From positions 1 through 64,000 of IMG/VR virus record IMGVR_UViG_3300020179_002092: DNA of 64,000 nt. One strand, 5' to 3'. Numbering within the stretch: the stretch's first letter is position 1; every line of letters starts with the position of its first letter. Origin of the DNA: a virus. The position numbers were made by a program, and so were the translations under genes. Under the pieces are notes generated by a model. That model was not told the origin of the DNA, did no database searches, and worked only from the letters and a program-made list of their open reading frames with translations. This document shows positions 3,590 to 64,000 of this stretch, piece after piece.

Positions 3590-3772
3590 ATGGACAAAAA
3601 AGTAAACGATATATTAAAAGCACTACTAGGCACTGACGAGCTAGTTCAACGCTGGTGGAATAGCCCTAATCGTGCGTTCGATGGAGAAATACCTGACGAT
3701 TTGTGGAATACTAGTGACGGTCGTAAACAGGTTTATACATATATAGTAAATCAACTAGAAGCCCCATACTAG
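3590..3772 (+). CDS. DUF2384-like (MbcA/ParS antitoxin C-terminal) protein
   Basis: 60 residues: a helical start (LKALLGTDELVQRWWNS), then PNRAFDGEIPDDLWNT and GRKQVYTYIVNQL. The order 'helix, W, sPNrAFdG, P, t..Gr..V..y' resembles the C-terminal toxin-binding domain of MbcA/ParS/Xre antitoxins (DUF2384). There is no helix-turn-helix and no toxin partner beside it. Short stand-alone versions of this kind occur in phages, with unknown role. The start ATG follows the tRNA-Leu by nine bases. Its stop shares a base with tRNA-Asp. Confidence 0.55.
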   Translation: MDKKVNDILKALLGTDELVQRWWNSPNRAFDGEIPDDLWNTSDGRKQVYTYIVNQLEAPY

Positions 3773-3849
3773 ATGCGTTAGCATAGCTGGCCAAATGTAC
3801 TGCCCTGTCACGGCAGAGATCATGGGTTCAAATCCCATACGCATCGCCA
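3772..3849 (+). tRNA. tRNA-Asp (anticodon GTC)
   Basis: The acceptor GATGCGT pairs with ACGCATC, followed by discriminator G and CCA. The anticodon loop CTGTCAC sits on a CTGCC/GGCAG stem. The first base of the tRNA is the last base of the TAG stop of the preceding gene, so RNase P processing must cut exactly at the end of that reading frame. Confidence 0.93.
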
Positions 3850-3883
3850 TATTAAAATATTCTTTATAAGAGTATTTTAATAT
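3849..3883 (+). other. A+T hairpin after tRNA-Asp
   Basis: ATATTAAAATA (3849-3859) and TATTTTAATAT (3873-3883) are inverted repeats with a 13-base loop, followed at once by a second small hairpin GGCTACT/AGTAGCC (3884-3901). There is no T tract, so this is more likely an RNA processing or stabilising structure than a terminator. Confidence 0.45.
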
Positions 3884-3925
3884 GGCTACTTGTTAGTAGC
3901 CATGCTAGAACAGTACGAGAATAAT

Positions 3926-4396
3926 ATGAAACCTTTTGACATTAAGGAAGTAAAAAATTATATTCTGCAAACTAGTCAGGAGAGTAGGATCTACTTAGGC
4001 GCAGATAGCGAGCGAAGTCAGCACGAGAAGATTTGGTGGGCTGACTATACTGTGGCTATCGTAGTACACATAGACGGCAAACACGGTTGTAAAATATTTG
4101 GTTATCATGTTCGTGAACGTGACTATGATCAAAAGAAGAATAGGCCTAGTATTAGATTGATGACTGAAGTCTATAAAGTTAGCGAAATTTACTTAGAACT
4201 AAAAGATGTAATTGAGGATCGTCATGTCGAAATACACCTAGACCTTAATCCACAGGAGTGCTATGCTAGTAATCAAGTAGTGCAACAAGCTATAGGCTAT
4301 ATTCGAGGTACTTGCGATGTTGAAGCTTTAATTAAACCAGATGCTTTTGCTGCAAGCTATGCAGCTGACAGATTAAAATTTATATTAAATCAATGA
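3926..4396 (+). CDS. YkuK-like RNase H-fold protein (DUF458)
   Basis: 156 residues. Features shared with the YkuK/DUF458 family are an early YLGADSERS strand, a central HLDLNPQECYASNQVVQQAIGY segment, and IKPDAFAASYAADRLK near the end. The family is predicted to adopt an RNase H-like fold, with acidic residues in LGADS and HLDLN as likely metal ligands. Its substrate is unknown. An in-frame ATG lies at 3902, but the GAGAATA site before 3926 supports the later start. It overlaps the next gene by four bases (ATGA). Confidence 0.72.
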   Translation: MKPFDIKEVKNYILQTSQESRIYLGADSERSQHEKIWWADYTVAIVVHIDGKHGCKIFGYHVRERDYDQKKNRPSIRLMTEVYKVSEIYLELKDVIEDRHVEIHLDLNPQECYASNQVVQQAIGYIRGTCDVEALIKPDAFAASYAADRLKFILNQ

Positions 4397-4612: not shown

Positions 4613-4686
4613 GCCCTTTTAGTTAAATGGTATAACAGTTGATTTGTAATCATCAATTGGCAGTTCAATTCTGTCAAAGGGCACCA
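4613..4686 (+). tRNA. tRNA-Thr (anticodon TGT)
   Basis: The acceptor GCCCTTT pairs with AAAGGGC, followed by A and CCA. The anticodon loop TTTGTAA gives TGT, on a stem with one T-T mismatch (GTTGA/TCATC). It sits one base after a coding stop and directly upstream of the tmRNA. Confidence 0.88.
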
Positions 4687-4699
4687 AGTTATAGTTGTA

Positions 4700-5040
4700 T
4701 GAAGCTAATAGAAACTTACTGCGGACGCGGGGGGCAGTTCCTCGCCGGGTCCACCAAAAGCGCACTGCCACTTAATACATAAATGCGGACTTATACCGGT
4801 ACAGCTTCCGCGGGTTAGTATAAGGTTGCAAACTTATACGTTAGTGTGCTTCTGATGGGCCCGACTTAGATTCGACGGGGTAAATAGTATTGCAGTGGAC
4901 AACTCGGCAGGCGATCTCCGTAAAAGAAGCAAATTAAAATAAATGCAAATGATGAGCATTTTTATCAGGAATTTAAGCTAGCCGCTTAAAACTTGATCGG
5001 GGTTCTGGGAATTTCCTTGTTACCAAAAATTCCCACTATA
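4700..5040 (+). ncRNA. ssrA: Circularly permuted (two-piece) tmRNA
   Basis: The acceptor piece comes first. A T-arm-like hairpin (GCGGG 4727-4731 / CTCGC 4741-4745) is followed by CGGGTCC, A and CCA ending at 4756. An intervening segment (4757-4856) follows, and then the coding piece starting GGGCCCGACTTAGATTCGAC at 4857. GGGCCCG pairs with CGGGTCC to make the 7-bp acceptor stem. The intervening segment is closed by AAGCGCACT (4758-4766) and AGTGTGCTT (4843-4851), so it forms a hairpin that would be excised. The tag frame runs from the resume codon GCA at 4945 to TAA at 4987-4989 and encodes ANDEHFYQEFKLAA. Together with SmpB it would rescue stalled ribosomes and tag products for proteolysis. 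The outer ends of both pieces are approximate. The 3' side contains a GGGAATTT/AAATTCCC stem (5007-5034). Confidence 0.92.
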
Positions 5041-47852: not shown

Positions 47853-50800
47853 TTATTTTAACCTGTGTGGGCCGGTGGGCGGTGTAAAGTTGGCAGTGTA
47901 ACGGGCTACACCCTTGGTAATTCGCAGATCGTCGATGTAACCATTGAAAAATGAACCTACTACTGCAGGTGGTCCAAGAGTACTTGAAGCACCGACACCG
48001 AATTTCGTGGAGGCTGTTAAGGTCATTAAATCACCAACTGTTATAGTACCAGTACCATCTAATACACCATTTATAAATAACCTCACTGTATTCGTAGACC
48101 TTGTAACTGCAACATGTGTCCAAGTATTTAGGCTAACATTACCGGTCGATACAAAATCTTGCCACGATGATTCACTGGCAGCTACAAAAAAAGTAAGTTT
48201 ATTTGTAGTGAAATACAACAGATACTGAATTACAGAAGTATCACCTATTCTATAGATACCGCAAATAACGCCATTAGTAGTAGAATAATTAATCCATGCT
48301 TCTATTGTAAAATCACCACTTTTAAGATCTAAAAAGCTGCCCGGTGGCGCTGGTATAGTTAAGTAGTCACCGGTGCCATCAAACGACATAGCACCTGTAC
48401 CATACTTAACTTGCACTGAACTAGTCTTGGCATCTGCCACAGTCTCAACGACCGTACGCCCGGTACGATCTACAATGGCAGCGTCGGTGAAGTTTAGTAG
48501 TAGACTGGTGTTAGCTGTAGGACTGGCTGGTGCGGTTGGTGGTGTAAATGCACTTGTATACAGTGCTGTACCTTTAATAATATTAAGATTAGTTATATAT
48601 CCGTTAAAATGCCAAGTATTTGTGTCTTCATTTCTTCCAATAGACCATTGCTGAGTTGTATCATTCATAGTTACTGAGCTTGTTCCAGTAGCTGCTGATA
48701 CTCCATTAAGCCAAATAGTAAAATTACTACCGCTGCGAGTAATAGCAATATGGTACCATGTATTAATATTTATTGTAGCAGTTGTTGTAAGGGTAAGACT
48801 GTTATTTATGCTAAAAGAAATAATATTAGCACTAGTTATATATAACATAAATGGATAGCTTGGTCCACTCCATTTACTCAATATTCCATGATTGCTACCA
48901 GCTGATAATCTGTAGACCCAGCACTCAATTGTAAAATTACTATTTCCAAGTTCCATATTTGGATTATCGGTTACAGTAAGAAAATCTCCAGTACCATCAA
49001 AATAGGCCGATCCACCGTGTAGTGCGGGTGTGTATGCTGCGGTGGGGGCGAAGGGTGAGAAGGCAACTACTCTGGCGTCACCGTTGCGAGTGACGGCGAA
49101 GTTATTGGTACTAGCATCTCTAAAGCGGTTGTCGTGGCAGGTTAATAAACTGGTGTTTGCTACAGCAGTTAGTGGTGTGGTACTTGGTGTAAAGTTTGTG
49201 GTATATAAGGCAGTGCCTTTAACAATACGCAGGTTACTGATATAGCCTGCGTAATCATTCCAAACTTGAGTATCCCATCTACCTATTACTAAACTGCTAG
49301 CGTTGTTAAAATTATTTGAACAAGTTATAGTATTTGTTAAAACTCCATTCGAGAAGGATGTCAACACAGTACCACTACGCACATATGCAATGTGTGTCCA
49401 TTGACCAGGAAGTACTTGATTGTTTTCACTATGTAAATTTCCACCACCAAAATAAAAAATAGCCGATTTAGTCCCTATGTTATAGGCTATTTTCCAACTG
49501 TCCGCTGTAGAACCTGTTCCTTTAGTTATCATATCTGGCCACGCATCAGTTGGGGTGGATGAAGGGTTCATCCAAAATTCAATAGTAAAATTACCAGTTT
49601 CCAAGTCTAGAGCGGCATTGTCTGCTATACTTAGGTAATCGTCGACACCATCAAAATAAACACTCCACCCAGTCTGACTAAATGGGCTGAATGTACCTTG
49701 ACTAGCATTACCGTTACGAGTGATTAAGAATTGATTCGAGCTGGCGTCCTGAAATCCATGATTGTTGTGTGGTTGACGATATTGTAGGGTTAATAATTGT
49801 GTATTGGCTATAGCGGTCAGTGGCTGGGTAGGTGGCGTAAATACCGAAGTACCACTTGTTATCGCACTGGTTTGATAGCTTGTCGGTACAGAACCTTTTG
49901 TAATTCGTACATCCGACATATAACCAGTAAACATAAAATTACCCAACGAATCTCCGGCAGTTGCAAGTGTCAACGCTCCGTTTGTATAATTACTGTTATT
50001 GGTAATTGAATTAGCGTCTAAAACACCATTAAGGAAAATCCTTGTTCCTGCGTTACTTGTAACCTGTCTTGTTACAGCAACGTGCGCCCAAGTATTAAGC
50101 TGTATATTTGTTGTCCCCGTAACAACATCAACACCAACAGTTCCATCTCTTAAAGTTAACTTATACCCTGATGATACATTTAACCAAGGAGAGTTGAAAT
50201 TAGGCGAACCTCTTCGTAAATCAATCAGACCAGAAGGGCTAGCAGGAGCAGCCGTCATGTATATCCAACCCTCCATGCAATATTCGCCAGTACCAAAAGC
50301 AAAAGCTGAGTTTACTGGCCCCTGCAAATAATCCCCACTACCATCAAAATATGCACTGCCGTTGGCTATTTGAGTATAAAATGGATTGTTATGAGATATA
50401 ACAGGACTATTTACTAAATTAATAGTAGCATTGGATATATTTTCTATAAACCTATTGTCTTGCCATAACAATAATTTAACATCACCTGCAACGGCTCCTT
50501 GACTACTATTAGTTAATTTAGTAGTAGGAGGTGTAAAAATTTGAGCATCTACAGTAGTTGAACTAGTTTGATAACTTGTAGGAACCGATCCTATAACCAT
50601 ACGGAAATTGCTAATAAAAATTTCTGTTAGATCTCCACCTAATTGACTATTTGTACCAAAACTAGTAGTAGATGTTCCATTTATATTAGTGGTCGCACCG
50701 GCTACTGACTCTTTTAATATGCCATTCAAAAAAAGCCTTAGTGTACCATTTTGTCTTGTTACCAGTACATGACACCAACGATTCTTATATAGTGCAACAT

Positions 50801-52298
50801 TGCTGGCTCCAGAAGCTGTAGCACTAAAATAAGTAGTAGAGTTTCCATCTATTAGAGTTTGTATTAATGAATCAACAGTCCCAAACGCTAGCTCTATTCC
50901 CACGCTACCTGCTAAACCCCAATTGCTTTGATGACTCCAAATTCTACTATAATTTGCTGGCTGTCTAACAACATTAATCCAACATTCTATACTAAGATCG
51001 TTGGTGCCTATACTGCGTGAGGCATTATAGGCAAGGTAAGCATAACTGCTAGAGCCGTTAGTATACAGACTATAACCAGTTCCGTATGGAGTAAAACTAC
51101 TAGCACGAGCATCGCCCAAGACAGTTAAGTTAAAATTATTCGCTGAACTATCCCGTACTATAGTATTGCCCTGCCCCCCACCTAATAGCAGTGTAGTCAA
51201 CCTAAAGTAAGGATCACTCACAGTGATAGTTACTGTAAATGTACGTGGGCTATCTTGATTTTGTGCATCGGTAGCACGCACTGTAAAAGTATAAGTGGTA
51301 TCTACTGTGACCCCAGTTACAGTGCCTGTGATAACACCAGTGCTGGTGTTCAAGGATAGGCCAGGCGGCAATGATCCCGATATTAGTGTATAACTGGTGG
51401 CTTCTGTGGCTACTAGACTTAATGATATTGAAACACCATCATACTGATCGGGCAAACCACTAGCAGTTTGCCAACTAGGTAAACTACTAAAAGTAACACC
51501 TGGTACGCTAATGGCCACACCACCATCACTGTTAATCACATAAACCACATATGTACCAGCTGCCAGTGCACCTGTGCCTACTTGTAGCTCTGTGCTTGAT
51601 ATAAAACTTATGCTAGCTGCTGGAGTTTGATTAAAGTATACTAAACAACCACTGGCAAAACCTGTTCCGGTTAACTTGATATATCCGCCACTGGTATCCA
51701 CAGCAGTGTCGTCAATGGCGGCATAACTGCTATCAGTTATAGTTATTGCGCTAATTTTAGGTGCAACGCCACTGCTAACTACATCGCCAAGTACACGTAA
51801 TTGTATTTGACTATTAGCAGGAGGAGCGCTAGTAAATATGACGTTACTGCCGCTGACAGTATAGTCTGTGGTGGGTGTTTGAGTTACGCCACCTATGATT
51901 GCCAGCACAGTATGTACTGTTATACCACCGGTGGCTGCAAAAGTTGTTGTACTACCATTGCCCGTATAAGTGTAAGTGGTGTGCTGTAGTCCAGCTCCAC
52001 TGCCACTACCGCCACTACCGCCACTACCTGCTAAACCTTGTATGCCTTGCGCACCGGTACCTGTAATACCCTGTAAACCCTGTAAACCCTGTAAACCCTG
52101 CAAACCCTGCAAACCCTGCAAACCCTGCAAACCCTGCAAACCCTGCAAACCCTGTAAACCCTGTAAACCCTGCGTACCACTACCTGTAGTACCTTGTGTA
52201 CCCTGATTTTGAGCAAAACCAAAGCCTTGTACGCCTTGTACGCCTTGTACGCCTTGTGGCAAGCTACTTGCTATTAGAGTTCTAACTGATATAGGCAT
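47853..52298 (-). CDS. Collagen/IPT/He_PIG/LamG tail-fibre protein
   Basis: 1481 residues, the largest complete gene. In order: a short N-terminus, a collagen-like region of G-L/V-Q triplets (about residues 16-90), a Gly/Ser linker, a T7-fibre-like domain with TTDYTVSGSNVIFTSAPPAN, an IPT/TIG-like domain (SAITITDSSYAAIDDTAVDT), a He_PIG domain (GSLPPGLSLNTSTGVITGT), and five LamG-type jelly rolls. Each jelly roll contains an 'FDG.GDYL' or similar strand and a 'WTHVAVTR' or similar turn. LamG domains bind carbohydrates. This is most likely a host-receptor-binding fibre. Confidence 0.88.
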   Translation of the reverse strand: MPISVRTLIASSLPQGVQGVQGVQGFGFAQNQGTQGTTGSGTQGLQGLQGLQGLQGLQGLQGLQGLQGLQGLQGLQGITGTGAQGIQGLAGSGGSGGSGSGAGLQHTTYTYTGNGSTTTFAATGGITVHTVLAIIGGVTQTPTTDYTVSGSNVIFTSAPPANSQIQLRVLGDVVSSGVAPKISAITITDSSYAAIDDTAVDTSGGYIKLTGTGFASGCLVYFNQTPAASISFISSTELQVGTGALAAGTYVVYVINSDGGVAISVPGVTFSSLPSWQTASGLPDQYDGVSISLSLVATEATSYTLISGSLPPGLSLNTSTGVITGTVTGVTVDTTYTFTVRATDAQNQDSPRTFTVTITVSDPYFRLTTLLLGGGQGNTIVRDSSANNFNLTVLGDARASSFTPYGTGYSLYTNGSSSYAYLAYNASRSIGTNDLSIECWINVVRQPANYSRIWSHQSNWGLAGSVGIELAFGTVDSLIQTLIDGNSTTYFSATASGASNVALYKNRWCHVLVTRQNGTLRLFLNGILKESVAGATTNINGTSTTSFGTNSQLGGDLTEIFISNFRMVIGSVPTSYQTSSTTVDAQIFTPPTTKLTNSSQGAVAGDVKLLLWQDNRFIENISNATINLVNSPVISHNNPFYTQIANGSAYFDGSGDYLQGPVNSAFAFGTGEYCMEGWIYMTAAPASPSGLIDLRRGSPNFNSPWLNVSSGYKLTLRDGTVGVDVVTGTTNIQLNTWAHVAVTRQVTSNAGTRIFLNGVLDANSITNNSNYTNGALTLATAGDSLGNFMFTGYMSDVRITKGSVPTSYQTSAITSGTSVFTPPTQPLTAIANTQLLTLQYRQPHNNHGFQDASSNQFLITRNGNASQGTFSPFSQTGWSVYFDGVDDYLSIADNAALDLETGNFTIEFWMNPSSTPTDAWPDMITKGTGSTADSWKIAYNIGTKSAIFYFGGGNLHSENNQVLPGQWTHIAYVRSGTVLTSFSNGVLTNTITCSNNFNNASSLVIGRWDTQVWNDYAGYISNLRIVKGTALYTTNFTPSTTPLTAVANTSLLTCHDNRFRDASTNNFAVTRNGDARVVAFSPFAPTAAYTPALHGGSAYFDGTGDFLTVTDNPNMELGNSNFTIECWVYRLSAGSNHGILSKWSGPSYPFMLYITSANIISFSINNSLTLTTTATININTWYHIAITRSGSNFTIWLNGVSAATGTSSVTMNDTTQQWSIGRNEDTNTWHFNGYITNLNIIKGTALYTSAFTPPTAPASPTANTSLLLNFTDAAIVDRTGRTVVETVADAKTSSVQVKYGTGAMSFDGTGDYLTIPAPPGSFLDLKSGDFTIEAWINYSTTNGVICGIYRIGDTSVIQYLLYFTTNKLTFFVAASESSWQDFVSTGNVSLNTWTHVAVTRSTNTVRLFINGVLDGTGTITVGDLMTLTASTKFGVGASSTLGPPAVVGSFFNGYIDDLRITKGVARYTANFTPPTGPHRLK
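52065..52172 (-). repeat. 9-bp tandem repeat encoding collagen-like G-L-Q
   Basis: On the plus strand the unit AAACCCTGC/T repeats with almost no change from about 52074 to 52168. It encodes consecutive GLQ triplets of the 47853-52298 fibre. Units are nine bases, so gain or loss of copies would keep the frame. Confidence 0.9.
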
Positions 52299-60805: not shown

Positions 60806-63800
60806 TTATTCTCTGTTATATAAAAAACTAATTACAAGATCAGTTCCCGCAATAGAACTACCTTTTTGCAGCACATCAACTGTAAAATAATCGCCTTTTA
60901 TTGAATTAATATTAACGTTAGATTCAATAGAATTAGTAGTAGCAGCTATAGTTAACTGTGCCACTTCGCTAGCATTTTTCTTTATACTTAAAATTATACT
61001 TGTACCGGTAGGGGCTGTTGAAACCTGTGCTCTTAGTTGGCTGACTAAAATATTACTTTGTATCCACCATCTACTGGTGCCTGTAGAAATATTTACTGTA
61101 CCAGGTAAATTATAGTGCCTTTCTAATATTGTAGGCTGTCCTTGTATACCTTGTATACCTTGTATACCTTGTATACCTTGTTGTCCTATTGTACTAGTAA
61201 TTTGCCAAGTAGTTCCATCGTATATAAATTCATATGTAGTACCGCTTATATCTAGTAATACATCATCTGCGTAACCTTCTATAGTACTACTATTTCTAGC
61301 AACTGTTAAGTTAATATTAGCTAAATTAGCTCCATCTGTAATAACTACGTAGTTACCTACTGCAGGACTACTAGGTAGTGTAATAGTAAATGTACCACCA
61401 CTAGTATCAACTATTAATTTATCACCACTTATAGCAGTATAATTTGCTGTTTTTCTTGACCACAGTGAGCTTCCACCAGTAGCTGTAAAAGTAATAGATT
61501 TTGGAACACTACTAGGGTTGGTTGTTATTTGTACACCACTGCCAGCTATAAATTTAACAGTATCTAAGCCACTAGCTACTAAATCTGCCTGACCGTCTAC
61601 TTGCCAAGTTTTAAAAGTAGAATTCATACCTACTTTTACAGCACCACTACCTAGGTTAGTTACATCAAAACCACTGTCGCTATCAAATCTTAGTGCAGTA
61701 ACACTAGACACTGCTTGACTAGTTACATTAGAACTATTTATAAGGCTAACTTCCATTAAAGTACCACTAGTACCTTGTATACCCTGACCAGCAAACTCTC
61801 CGTGTAATCCTTGTATACCTTGTACGCCTTGTACGCCTTGATTTTGATTAAAACCACCACCTTGTATACCTTGCGTACCCTGTATACCTTGTGGACCAAG
61901 ATTAGTAATATTAATAATACCTGCCATTGACCCATGATGTTGGCAATTATAATATAATGTATTTGGTGCATCATAAGGTACAACAAATGTAATGGTACCA
62001 TTATCAATACCATTATTGGTTACTCCAGTGTTGTATTGATCACCTGTACCAGTTGTTTGAGTCGTTTTTATCCAAAAAGTATGACCACTAGCAGAAATAG
62101 AAAAGTAATAAGTAAATCCTCTTATAAAGTTAAGAGTAGGATTATTAGATCCATTTATTACATAGGCACCACTTCCAGAATTAGTAACAGTATAGGTAGC
62201 TCCTCCTACTAATCCTTGTATACCTTGGTTGCCTTGTGGCCCTTGACATCCTTGTGTACCTTGAGTACCTTGTGGTCCCTGTATACCTTGAATACCTACA
62301 GCTCCGCTAAGATCACTTTGATAGCTCCAGCTAGTACCAGTCCATAAATATAGTTTACTATTATCAGGATCTTCTGAATTAATTGTATTTACTAAAGCAA
62401 ACTGACCTCCTACAATATTTGTAGGATTAGTATCTGCTAATAATGCAGATACTGTTGAATATACTTTTGCAATAACAAAACCTAAACCAGTATCGCCTCG
62501 TAATCCTTGTAGTCCCTGTATACCTTGTATACCTTGTATACCTTGATTTTGATCAAAGCCACGTCCCTGCAATCCTTGCAGCCCTTGCAGCCCTTGCAAC
62601 CCTTGCAACCCTTGCAGCCCTTGCAACCCTTGATTCTGATCAAAACCACCACCTTGTAATCCTTGTACACCTTGTGGTCCAATTACTCCTTGTTCACCTT
62701 GTGGTCCTGTATAACCTTCTGGTCCTTCTGGCCCAATTTGCCCATGTTCACCTCGTGTACCCTGTAATCCTTGAGACACTAGTAATGTCCAATTGTTTCC
62801 TTCAATAGGTATAATACCAGAAGTAAGTGTAAATATCATTGATCCACTTATAGTTCCTTCAGTAAACCCTATAGGTGTTCCACCAATAGCTGTACTTAAT
62901 TTAAATTGAAAACTAGCGTCCGGTACAGAAATAATATAGTAGTATGTTCCTAACGGATTATAACCGATAATTGTTGCTGTGCCACCATCATTAGTTCCAG
63001 ATACATATACTCTATCTCCTACCCTTAATCCCTGATCTAAATTAACTGGATTACAACTAATTATACCTGTAGAATTTATACTTATATTAGTTAGTGTTTC
63101 AGTTATAAAATTTTCTTTTACTAGCCAGTTACTACCAATATAGTGAACGATATCAAAATATTCATAATTTGCTGTTGAATTCCAGATACCTTTAGGAGTA
63201 AATCTTCTACCTTGTGTACCTTGCGTACCTTGACTTTGATCAAATCCACCACCCTGTATACCTTGTGGTCCTTGTGGTCCTTGTGGCCCATATGGTCCTT
63301 GTATACCTTGATTTTGGTCAAAACCACCACCCTGTAGTCCTTGTCTACCTTGTGTACCTTGTCTACCTTGTGTACCTTGTCTACCTTGTAGTCCTTGTAT
63401 ACCTTGATTTTGATCAAAGCCACCACCCTGTAGCCCTTGTTGACCTTGTGGCCCTTGTGGCCCTTGTATACCTTGTGATCCTTGTATACCTTGATTTTGA
63501 TCAAAGCCACCACCCTGTAGTCCTTGTGTACCTTGTGTACCTTGTGTACCTTGTGTACCTTGTCTACCTTGTGTACCTTGTGTACCTTGATTTTGATCAA
63601 AGCCACCACCCTGTAGTCCTTGTGTACCTTGTACACCTTGTGGTCCTTGTCTACCTTGAGTACCTTGAGTACCTTGATTTTGATCAAAACCACCACCCTG
63701 TAGTCCTTGTCTACCTTGTGTACCTTGTCTACCTTGTGTACCTTGTCTACCTTGTGTACCTTGTGTACCTTGATTTTGGTCAAAGCCACCACCTTGTAGT

Positions 63801-64000
63801 CCTTGCGTACCTTGAGTGCCTTGTCTACCTTGAGTGCCTTGTCTACCTTGAGTGCCTTGTGTGCCTTGATTTTGATCAAAACCACCACCCTGTAGTCCTT
63901 GTGTACCTTGTGTACCTTGAGTACCTTGAGTACCTTGTCTACCTTGTAGTCCTTGTATACCTTGATTTTGATCAAAGCCACCACCCTGTAGTCCTTGTAG
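60806..64000 (-). CDS. Collagen-like tail fibre with cupredoxin-like domain, 5' truncated
   Basis: The frame is open without a stop from the window edge to the TAA at 60806, giving 1064 visible residues. From the edge: collagen-like G-x-Q triplets with recurring GGGFDQNQG linkers (to about 63200), a 120-residue beta domain (IWNSTANYEYFDIVHYIGSN to GTISGS), more G-x-Q and G-P-E-G-type triplets (62770-62480), and a short ordered domain. A cupredoxin-like domain (GHTFWIKTTQ, YYNCQHHGSMAG) follows, with further collagen-like runs. The C-terminal tip (SRWWIQSNILVSQLRAQVS) is shared with the gene at 40930. The Met at 62839 is internal and not the start. The true start lies beyond 64000. Confidence 0.85.
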   Translation of the reverse strand, partial: LQGLQGGGFDQNQGIQGLQGRQGTQGTQGTQGTQGLQGGGFDQNQGTQGTQGRQGTQGRQGTQGTQGLQGGGFDQNQGTQGTQGRQGTQGRQGTQGRQGLQGGGFDQNQGTQGTQGRQGPQGVQGTQGLQGGGFDQNQGTQGTQGRQGTQGTQGTQGTQGLQGGGFDQNQGIQGSQGIQGPQGPQGQQGLQGGGFDQNQGIQGLQGRQGTQGRQGTQGRQGLQGGGFDQNQGIQGPYGPQGPQGPQGIQGGGFDQSQGTQGTQGRRFTPKGIWNSTANYEYFDIVHYIGSNWLVKENFITETLTNISINSTGIISCNPVNLDQGLRVGDRVYVSGTNDGGTATIIGYNPLGTYYYIISVPDASFQFKLSTAIGGTPIGFTEGTISGSMIFTLTSGIIPIEGNNWTLLVSQGLQGTRGEHGQIGPEGPEGYTGPQGEQGVIGPQGVQGLQGGGFDQNQGLQGLQGLQGLQGLQGLQGLQGRGFDQNQGIQGIQGIQGLQGLRGDTGLGFVIAKVYSTVSALLADTNPTNIVGGQFALVNTINSEDPDNSKLYLWTGTSWSYQSDLSGAVGIQGIQGPQGTQGTQGCQGPQGNQGIQGLVGGATYTVTNSGSGAYVINGSNNPTLNFIRGFTYYFSISASGHTFWIKTTQTTGTGDQYNTGVTNNGIDNGTITFVVPYDAPNTLYYNCQHHGSMAGIINITNLGPQGIQGTQGIQGGGFNQNQGVQGVQGIQGLHGEFAGQGIQGTSGTLMEVSLINSSNVTSQAVSSVTALRFDSDSGFDVTNLGSGAVKVGMNSTFKTWQVDGQADLVASGLDTVKFIAGSGVQITTNPSSVPKSITFTATGGSSLWSRKTANYTAISGDKLIVDTSGGTFTITLPSSPAVGNYVVITDGANLANINLTVARNSSTIEGYADDVLLDISGTTYEFIYDGTTWQITSTIGQQGIQGIQGIQGIQGQPTILERHYNLPGTVNISTGTSRWWIQSNILVSQLRAQVSTAPTGTSIILSIKKNASEVAQLTIAATTNSIESNVNINSIKGDYFTVDVLQKGSSIAGTDLVISFLYNRE
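63190..64000 (-). repeat. Collagen-like repeat array with FDQNQG linkers
   Basis: On the plus strand CCTTGTGTA-type 9-bp units are interrupted nine times by a TTGATTTTGATCAAA-type linker followed by CCACCACCCTG, about every 80-100 bases. In protein this is (G-x-Q)n-GGGFDQNQ repeated. The array continues past the window edge, so total copy number is not visible. Confidence 0.9.

Follow-up and report, generated by a model that had tools for sequence, protein, structure and literature searches.

Does the tRNA-rich region of a freshwater phage encode a transfer-messenger RNA (tmRNA), which releases stalled ribosomes and tags the incomplete proteins on them, in circularly permuted, two-piece form, and what would such a gene do for the phage? 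We addressed this question in the window, the first 64,000 nucleotides of IMG/VR virus record IMGVR_UViG_3300020179_002092 (G000; 74,495 bases, linear and possibly incomplete). Positions 4683-5037 of the window hold a phage-borne, circularly permuted tmRNA gene that is complete. The Rfam model tmRNA_permuted (RF04321) matches positions 4693-4989 with 110.5 bits (E 1.1e-20; cut-off 47), and alpha_tmRNA (RF01849) matches positions 4640-5037 with 81.3 bits (E 1.8e-20), both far beyond chance. A first-pass annotation of the same DNA had proposed a phage-encoded permuted tmRNA within a tRNA cluster and had named a covariance-model search as one way to check it. These Rfam matches, the seven tRNA genes that surround the tmRNA gene in the window, and the phage genes all agree with that proposal.

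The segments follow the order acceptor piece, spacer and coding piece, with the encoded CCA lying 5' of G4857 (coordinates in Table 1). The first-pass annotation had placed an acceptor part with CCA, ending at 4756, ahead of a 5' start at 4857, and these positions are exact in the sequence. The pairing that it had read between GGGCCCG and CGGGTCC forms in all seven pairs of the acceptor stem, including G4859-T4750, which corresponds to the G3-U70 wobble. This wobble is a recognition feature for alanyl-tRNA synthetase (AlaRS). The 100-base segment closed by a helix is likewise present. A P2 helix links both pieces (model positions 1-5 in the RF04321 alignment), and A4868 and G4869 occupy the G18 and G19 positions of the D-loop. 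Two features go beyond the earlier description: a six-pair T-stem, one pair above the normal five but with a loop of the normal 7 nt, and a tag frame with a resume codon GCA (4945), a stop codon TAA (4989) and a degron-like end, encoding ANDEHFYQEFKLAA. The window gene thus resembles RF01849 and RF04321 in its full-length matches, its segment order and its GGC-type T-loop with AG in the D-loop, but differs in its T-stem with one inserted pair (6 bp), its GGGCCCG/CGGGTCC acceptor, its 100-nt spacer and its tag.

Within its clan, alpha_tmRNA is the best model for the window gene, ahead of the beta and cyano models. The alpha subtype is nevertheless weak, because the best model differs among phages that have this acceptor and T-stem: it is beta in L032 and L044, and alpha in L038 (compared loci are numbered with L). 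ARAGORN makes no call for the window gene, also with its tmRNA option, and likewise misses the relatives L002, L007, L030 and L044, which were found with Rfam models. For the precursor folded as a single strand, z was -2.5, a value that is weak alone and was not relied on. Promoter and terminator scans reached chance level only.

Permuted tmRNAs were gathered by degenerate pattern scans of IMG/VR and by a search for the neighbouring RNaseH-like protein. A total of 95 distinct permuted phage tmRNAs were recovered from IMG/VR, and four cultured phages, with Stenotrophomonas, Xanthomonas and Synechococcus elongatus as hosts, also carry one. In the 2022 report of a permuted tmRNA in Methylophilales phage Melnitz, ARAGORN read 53 of 133 distinct structures of phage tmRNA as two-piece (PMC9004378). 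The 2025 tmRNA database, which introduced RF04321, holds 79 bacteriophage sequences (PMC11915505). To call the window gene unusual for a phage, as the first-pass annotation did, was therefore too strong.

The fold was examined in the 95 phage tmRNAs. Because the search fixed acceptor pairs 1-3 and the 5' base of pair 7, these are uninformative, while pairs 4-6 were free to vary. Compensated changes were found at pair 4 (CG/GC), pair 5 (CG/GC/AT/TA, with one mismatch) and pair 6 (CG/AT/TA). The class of the T-loop matches base 18 of the D-loop without exception in 95 of 95 tmRNAs, although these are mutually related and the counts given here do not represent independent events. TTC T-loops occur with G18 in 57 sequences, plus three TTC-reading sequences whose T-arm was not parsed by the script, and GGC or TGC T-loops occur with A18 in the other 35. 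The six-pair T-stem is common to 12 of the 95, window included, with compensated forms GCGGGG/CCTCGC, GGGGAG/CTCCCC and GGGAGG/CCTCCC, and is for this reason regarded as a genuine variant rather than a mistake. The spacer helix has a mean of 11.0 pairs in the 95 relatives versus 3.3 in shuffled spacers (99th percentile 8). The covariation of pairs 4-6 and of the T-loop/D-loop contact indicates that the phage tmRNAs fold.

Among isolates, the closest DNA matches are Stenotrophomonas phages, over query positions 3-88, which correspond to the end of tRNA-Thr and the tmRNA leader. These matches end before the coding piece, and a Synechococcus phage matches in the pre-tag region only. In Stenotrophomonas phage Moby (L318, 637-750), the place taken by the tmRNA in the related Marzo is annotated as the hypothetical protein CPT_Moby_106, probably a spurious gene call within an unannotated permuted tmRNA. 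Menderavirus Marzo, phage DLP_6, Synechococcus phage BUCT-ZZ01 and the loci L053 and L059 are of the beta_tmRNA type (RF01850). They are permuted like the window gene, but have a canonical TTCGA-type T-loop and tags such as ANDEVFALAA, ANDDSYTVRIAA and ANDDSFAPMAIAA. Melnitz and marine and aquatic phages share with the window a two-piece alpha-type tmRNA and tRNA genes in the phage genome (PMC9004378). The ssrA gene of Melnitz is reported there under a glutamine riboswitch, whereas the window yielded no riboswitch at Rfam gathering cut-offs. The 6-bp T-stem and the body/tag mosaicism described below do not appear in the consulted passages of the Melnitz account (PMC9004378).

The RNaseH-like protein of the window is 92–93% identical to the copies in its closest relatives, in which a permuted tmRNA also lies directly downstream of the RNaseH-like gene. 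The tmRNA is retained at the same locus in at least 12 related phages, and positions 4683-4724 of the leader share 93–98% identity across eight syntenic phages. Most syntenic relatives are close to the window in the RNaseH gene (84–88% identity) and in the leader of the tmRNA (95%), but identity falls to 59–69% in the T-arm and acceptor and to 40–47% in the spacer. The tRNA-like block of these relatives has the T-loop TTCGACT, a five-pair T-stem, the acceptor GGGCCAG/CTGGTCC and a spacer mostly of 74 nt. In L053 and L059, which share phage locus and leader with the window but differ in their 5-bp T-stem, GGGCCAG acceptor and 74-nt spacer, this block matches RF01850. The close relative L003 has a window-type block (T-arm 100%, spacer 95%), and its contig stops inside the coding piece.

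The tags show a similar patchwork. At the nucleotide level, L051 is 87% identical to the window in the RNaseH gene, 95% in the leader, 69% in the T-arm and acceptor, 40% in the spacer and 89% in the tag. It combines a beta-type block with the tag ANDEHFYQEFKLVA, close to that of the window, and the tag peptide is kept through synonymous changes between the two. L056 is 93% identical to the window in the pre-tag region and 53% in the tag. Most syntenic relatives have the tag ANDEVFALAA, and L059 has ANDDYFYQDLKLAA. In the whole set, ANDEVFALAA is found on three acceptor types and ANDDYFYQDLKLAA on four, with body identities that go down to 0.67 and 0.74, respectively. Identical bodies also bear unlike tags, for example ANDSEYALAA and ANDDAFFGETRLAA. 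These comparisons indicate that tmRNA body and tag are exchanged between phages in blocks. Such exchange in phage tmRNA was not found in the open-licence literature searched, and the mosaicism looks new.

Mosaicism of this kind could also arise as an artefact of metagenome assembly, with short conserved stretches joining different phages. Apart from the isolates, every locus comes from a metagenome assembly, and conserved sequence such as the leader and the pre-tag region can give rise to mis-joins. However, given body/tag combinations turn up more than once, in contigs of separate samples (L255, L256, L271 and L296; L285, L289, L299 and L305; L002 with L013; L007 with L026; L245 with L249), although single cases may still be errors, and the swaps preserve the T-loop/D-loop agreement. 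We consider an artefact improbable, and the identification of the tmRNA is independent of mosaicism. For the block exchange itself, we tentatively propose that the permuted phage tmRNA might serve as a modular platform. The tRNA-like block could be swapped in one recombination step, because the permutation makes T-arm, CCA, spacer, acceptor and D-loop neighbours, and tag cassettes could be exchanged separately. Phages might in this way determine, without regard to the host, what happens to rescued proteins, with some cassettes (31 aa, FAV) rescuing without Clp marking.

One such cassette encodes the 31-residue tag ANASKGEVTVSAGK(G/E)IRFSAR(G/S)SVKAETFAV, which was found in sixteen viral stretches on at least six bodies and ends in FAV, not LAA. 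Its coding sequences carry synonymous differences, with one serine written as TCT and AGT, which suggests that the peptide itself is the conserved part. This tag may allow ribosome rescue without a Clp degron. The DNA of the tag is nearly identical in L002, L007, L013, L026 and L239-L250, all freshwater viral contigs. The tmRNAs of L240, L242 and L246-L248 bear this tag on a body with the 5' end GGGGGTGTACTCAGTATTCGAC and a D-loop unlike that of other bodies. An origin from an HU-like protein, an idea formed by eye, was rejected: the tag has no Pfam match, and its matches in PDB have E values of at least 1.3. Neither the window tag nor the 31-residue tag occurs in 399 genomes of Burkholderiales, the only order searched. 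The betaproteobacterial metagenome-assembled genome (MAG) L212 has a one-piece tmRNA whose tag, ANDSFYGESRLAA, is similar to the phage tags ANDDYFGEVRLAA and ANDAYFGEERLAA.

The complete permuted tmRNA gene very probably serves trans-translation, with SmpB supplied by the host and a tag specific to the phage. Enzymes of tRNA processing would act on the transcript: RNase P would cut at 4857 and 3' processing would act at 4756, removing the spacer (4757-4856), while the acceptor and coding pieces would stay joined via the acceptor stem and P2. Alanine would be attached to the tmRNA by AlaRS through G3-U70, and host EF-Tu and host SmpB would deliver it to stalled ribosomes. The tag would then be appended to the stalled chain as a Clp-type degron (LAA), and the phage would provide both its own rescue RNA and its own tag. 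The sequences show the gene structure, the covariation and the block exchange, and we infer transcription, processing, charging, tagging and degradation from established tmRNA biology. Several points weigh against this reading. SmpB (PF01668) was not found in G000 or 22 related records, which may be incomplete, and activity would therefore depend on host SmpB. The six-pair T-stem and the seven-pair acceptor add up to a 13-bp stack, one above the usual length, which could weaken EF-Tu binding. ARAGORN, as noted, is silent on the gene.

The same unusual stack and missing phage SmpB would also suit an RNA that is made but serves to divert or inhibit the trans-translation of the host, occupying host SmpB or EF-Tu as a decoy with no tagging of its own. 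An intact tag frame with resume codon GCA, stop codon and LAA end would be superfluous for such an RNA, however, and related tags keep their amino acids through synonymous changes. A decoy thus seems unlikely, and trans-translation with host SmpB is the reading we retain.

The origin of the gene was sought in bacterial genomes. Among 84,980 species genomes of bacteria and archaea, not one has the exact combination of acceptor and D-loop with a spacer of 75-105 nt. The suggestion of the first-pass annotation that the gene came from the host lineage thus finds no support. An exact host-derived copy was rejected on this ground, although the pattern is strict and distant bacterial relatives could escape it. 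The best clue to the possible host of the window phage, a Bmp gene, is betaproteobacterial, whereas the alpha type fits the tRNA-like block. The bacterial Bmp proteins nearest to it (76–83% identical) come from freshwater Burkholderiaceae and related MAGs. Permuted tmRNA was found in none of the 23 genomes from the Bmp match list, and 18 of the 23 have a one-piece tmRNA over the cut-off, with tags mostly like ANDERFALAA. This one-piece Burkholderiales tmRNA (RF00023) works in the same pathway and has ANDE-starting tags, but it is not permuted and its tags mostly have 10 aa. The permuted model was matched by 19 of 399 Burkholderiales genomes, three of them weakly and read as one-piece by ARAGORN. 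In a control genome of S. elongatus, no permuted tmRNA matched at E 1e-6. The Stenotrophomonas and Xanthomonas hosts have one-piece tmRNA. Given these hosts of cultured phages, a permuted phage tmRNA need not stem from the current host.

That the gene is a passive remnant, a host ssrA that came in as an attachment site or through accidental transduction with no role for the phage, is very improbable, for although tmRNA genes frequently serve as integration sites and imprecise prophage excision is proposed as a source of phage ssrA in PMC9004378, no tyrosine integrase (PF00589) was found in G000 (linear and possibly incomplete), the gene is kept at one locus across related phages with compensated pairs and intact tags, and its acceptor/D-loop arrangement is in no bacterial genome searched.

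The Bmp (PnrA-like) ABC lipoprotein gene lies with a VanA-like Rieske oxygenase gene at positions 819-2906, as an insertion among phage genes, in a stretch with a G+C content of 42–50% compared to about 32%. The corresponding stretch of L003 lacks both genes. L003 also lacks the tRNA-Asp and the RNaseH-like gene (window 3772-4374), with matching flanks and the tmRNA block of the window present. L157, a MAG labelled Candidatus Fonsibacter lacus, looks mis-binned: its Bmp gene is Burkholderiales-like, and its one-piece tmRNA (L211) encodes the tag ANDERFALAA.

The record is a phage, and replication and structural genes flank the tmRNA gene. Genes encoding a DnaB-type helicase, primase, DNA polymerase A, helicase and SSB were identified in the window, together with an NAD-dependent DNA ligase split over two frames. 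Other genes encode an SbcC-like protein, exonuclease, ribonucleotide reductase, PhoH, endolysin and tail-fibre-like proteins. The DNA polymerase is closest (48–49%) to those of phages with genomes of 103-129 kb, and the replication gene set is similar to that of T5-like phages. Collagen-like GLQGLQG repeats were observed in tail-fibre-like proteins on the minus strand (47853-52298, 60806-62839 and 63121-63984); the frame 63121-63984 is probably a wrong-frame reading of these repeats.

Table 1. Features of the tmRNA locus and its neighbours, in window coordinates
Feature	Start	End	Strand	Remarks
RNaseH-like protein gene (PF04308, phrog_11311)	3890	4396	+	Syntenic marker gene for finding relatives
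tRNA-Thr(TGT)	4613	4686	+	Directly upstream; overlaps the tmRNA leader by a few bases
Acceptor-piece 5' leader	4683	4726	+	Holds P2 5' strand AGTTG (4693-4697)
T-arm	4727	4745	+	6-bp stem GCGGGG/CCTCGC (4727-4732/4740-4745); 7-nt loop GGCAGTT (4733-4739)
Acceptor 3' strand, discriminator and CCA	4746	4756	+	CGGGTCC (4746-4752), A4753, encoded CCA (4754-4756)
Intervening spacer, 100 nt	4757	4856	+	Removal predicted; closing helix of 10 pairs (4758-4767/4842-4851)
Coding-piece 5' end	4857	4878	+	Begins GGGCCCGACTTAGATTCGAC at 4857; acceptor strand GGGCCCG (4857-4863), D-loop
P2 3' strand and pre-tag region	4879	4944	+	CAACT (4902-4906); extends to the resume codon
Tag frame GCA...TAA	4945	4989	+	Peptide ANDEHFYQEFKLAA, 14 aa, LAA end
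Coding-piece 3' part	4990	5037	+	Pseudoknot-like by alpha_tmRNA homology; alpha_tmRNA match reaches 5037
tRNA-Gly(GCC), tRNA-Gly(TCC), tRNA-Val(TAC)	5367	5612	+	Downstream of the tmRNA

Permuted phage tmRNA itself is already known, and it is the modular pattern of tags and bodies that merits follow-up. Surveys based on ARAGORN undercount phage tmRNAs. Tags vary while the fold is kept, which suggests that selection acts on the tag, and a retuning of tagging during infection, as suggested by the first-pass annotation, is plausible. If the gene is expressed, infected cells would rescue ribosomes with a tag chosen by the phage, and the comparison makes it testable why phages carry tmRNA at all.
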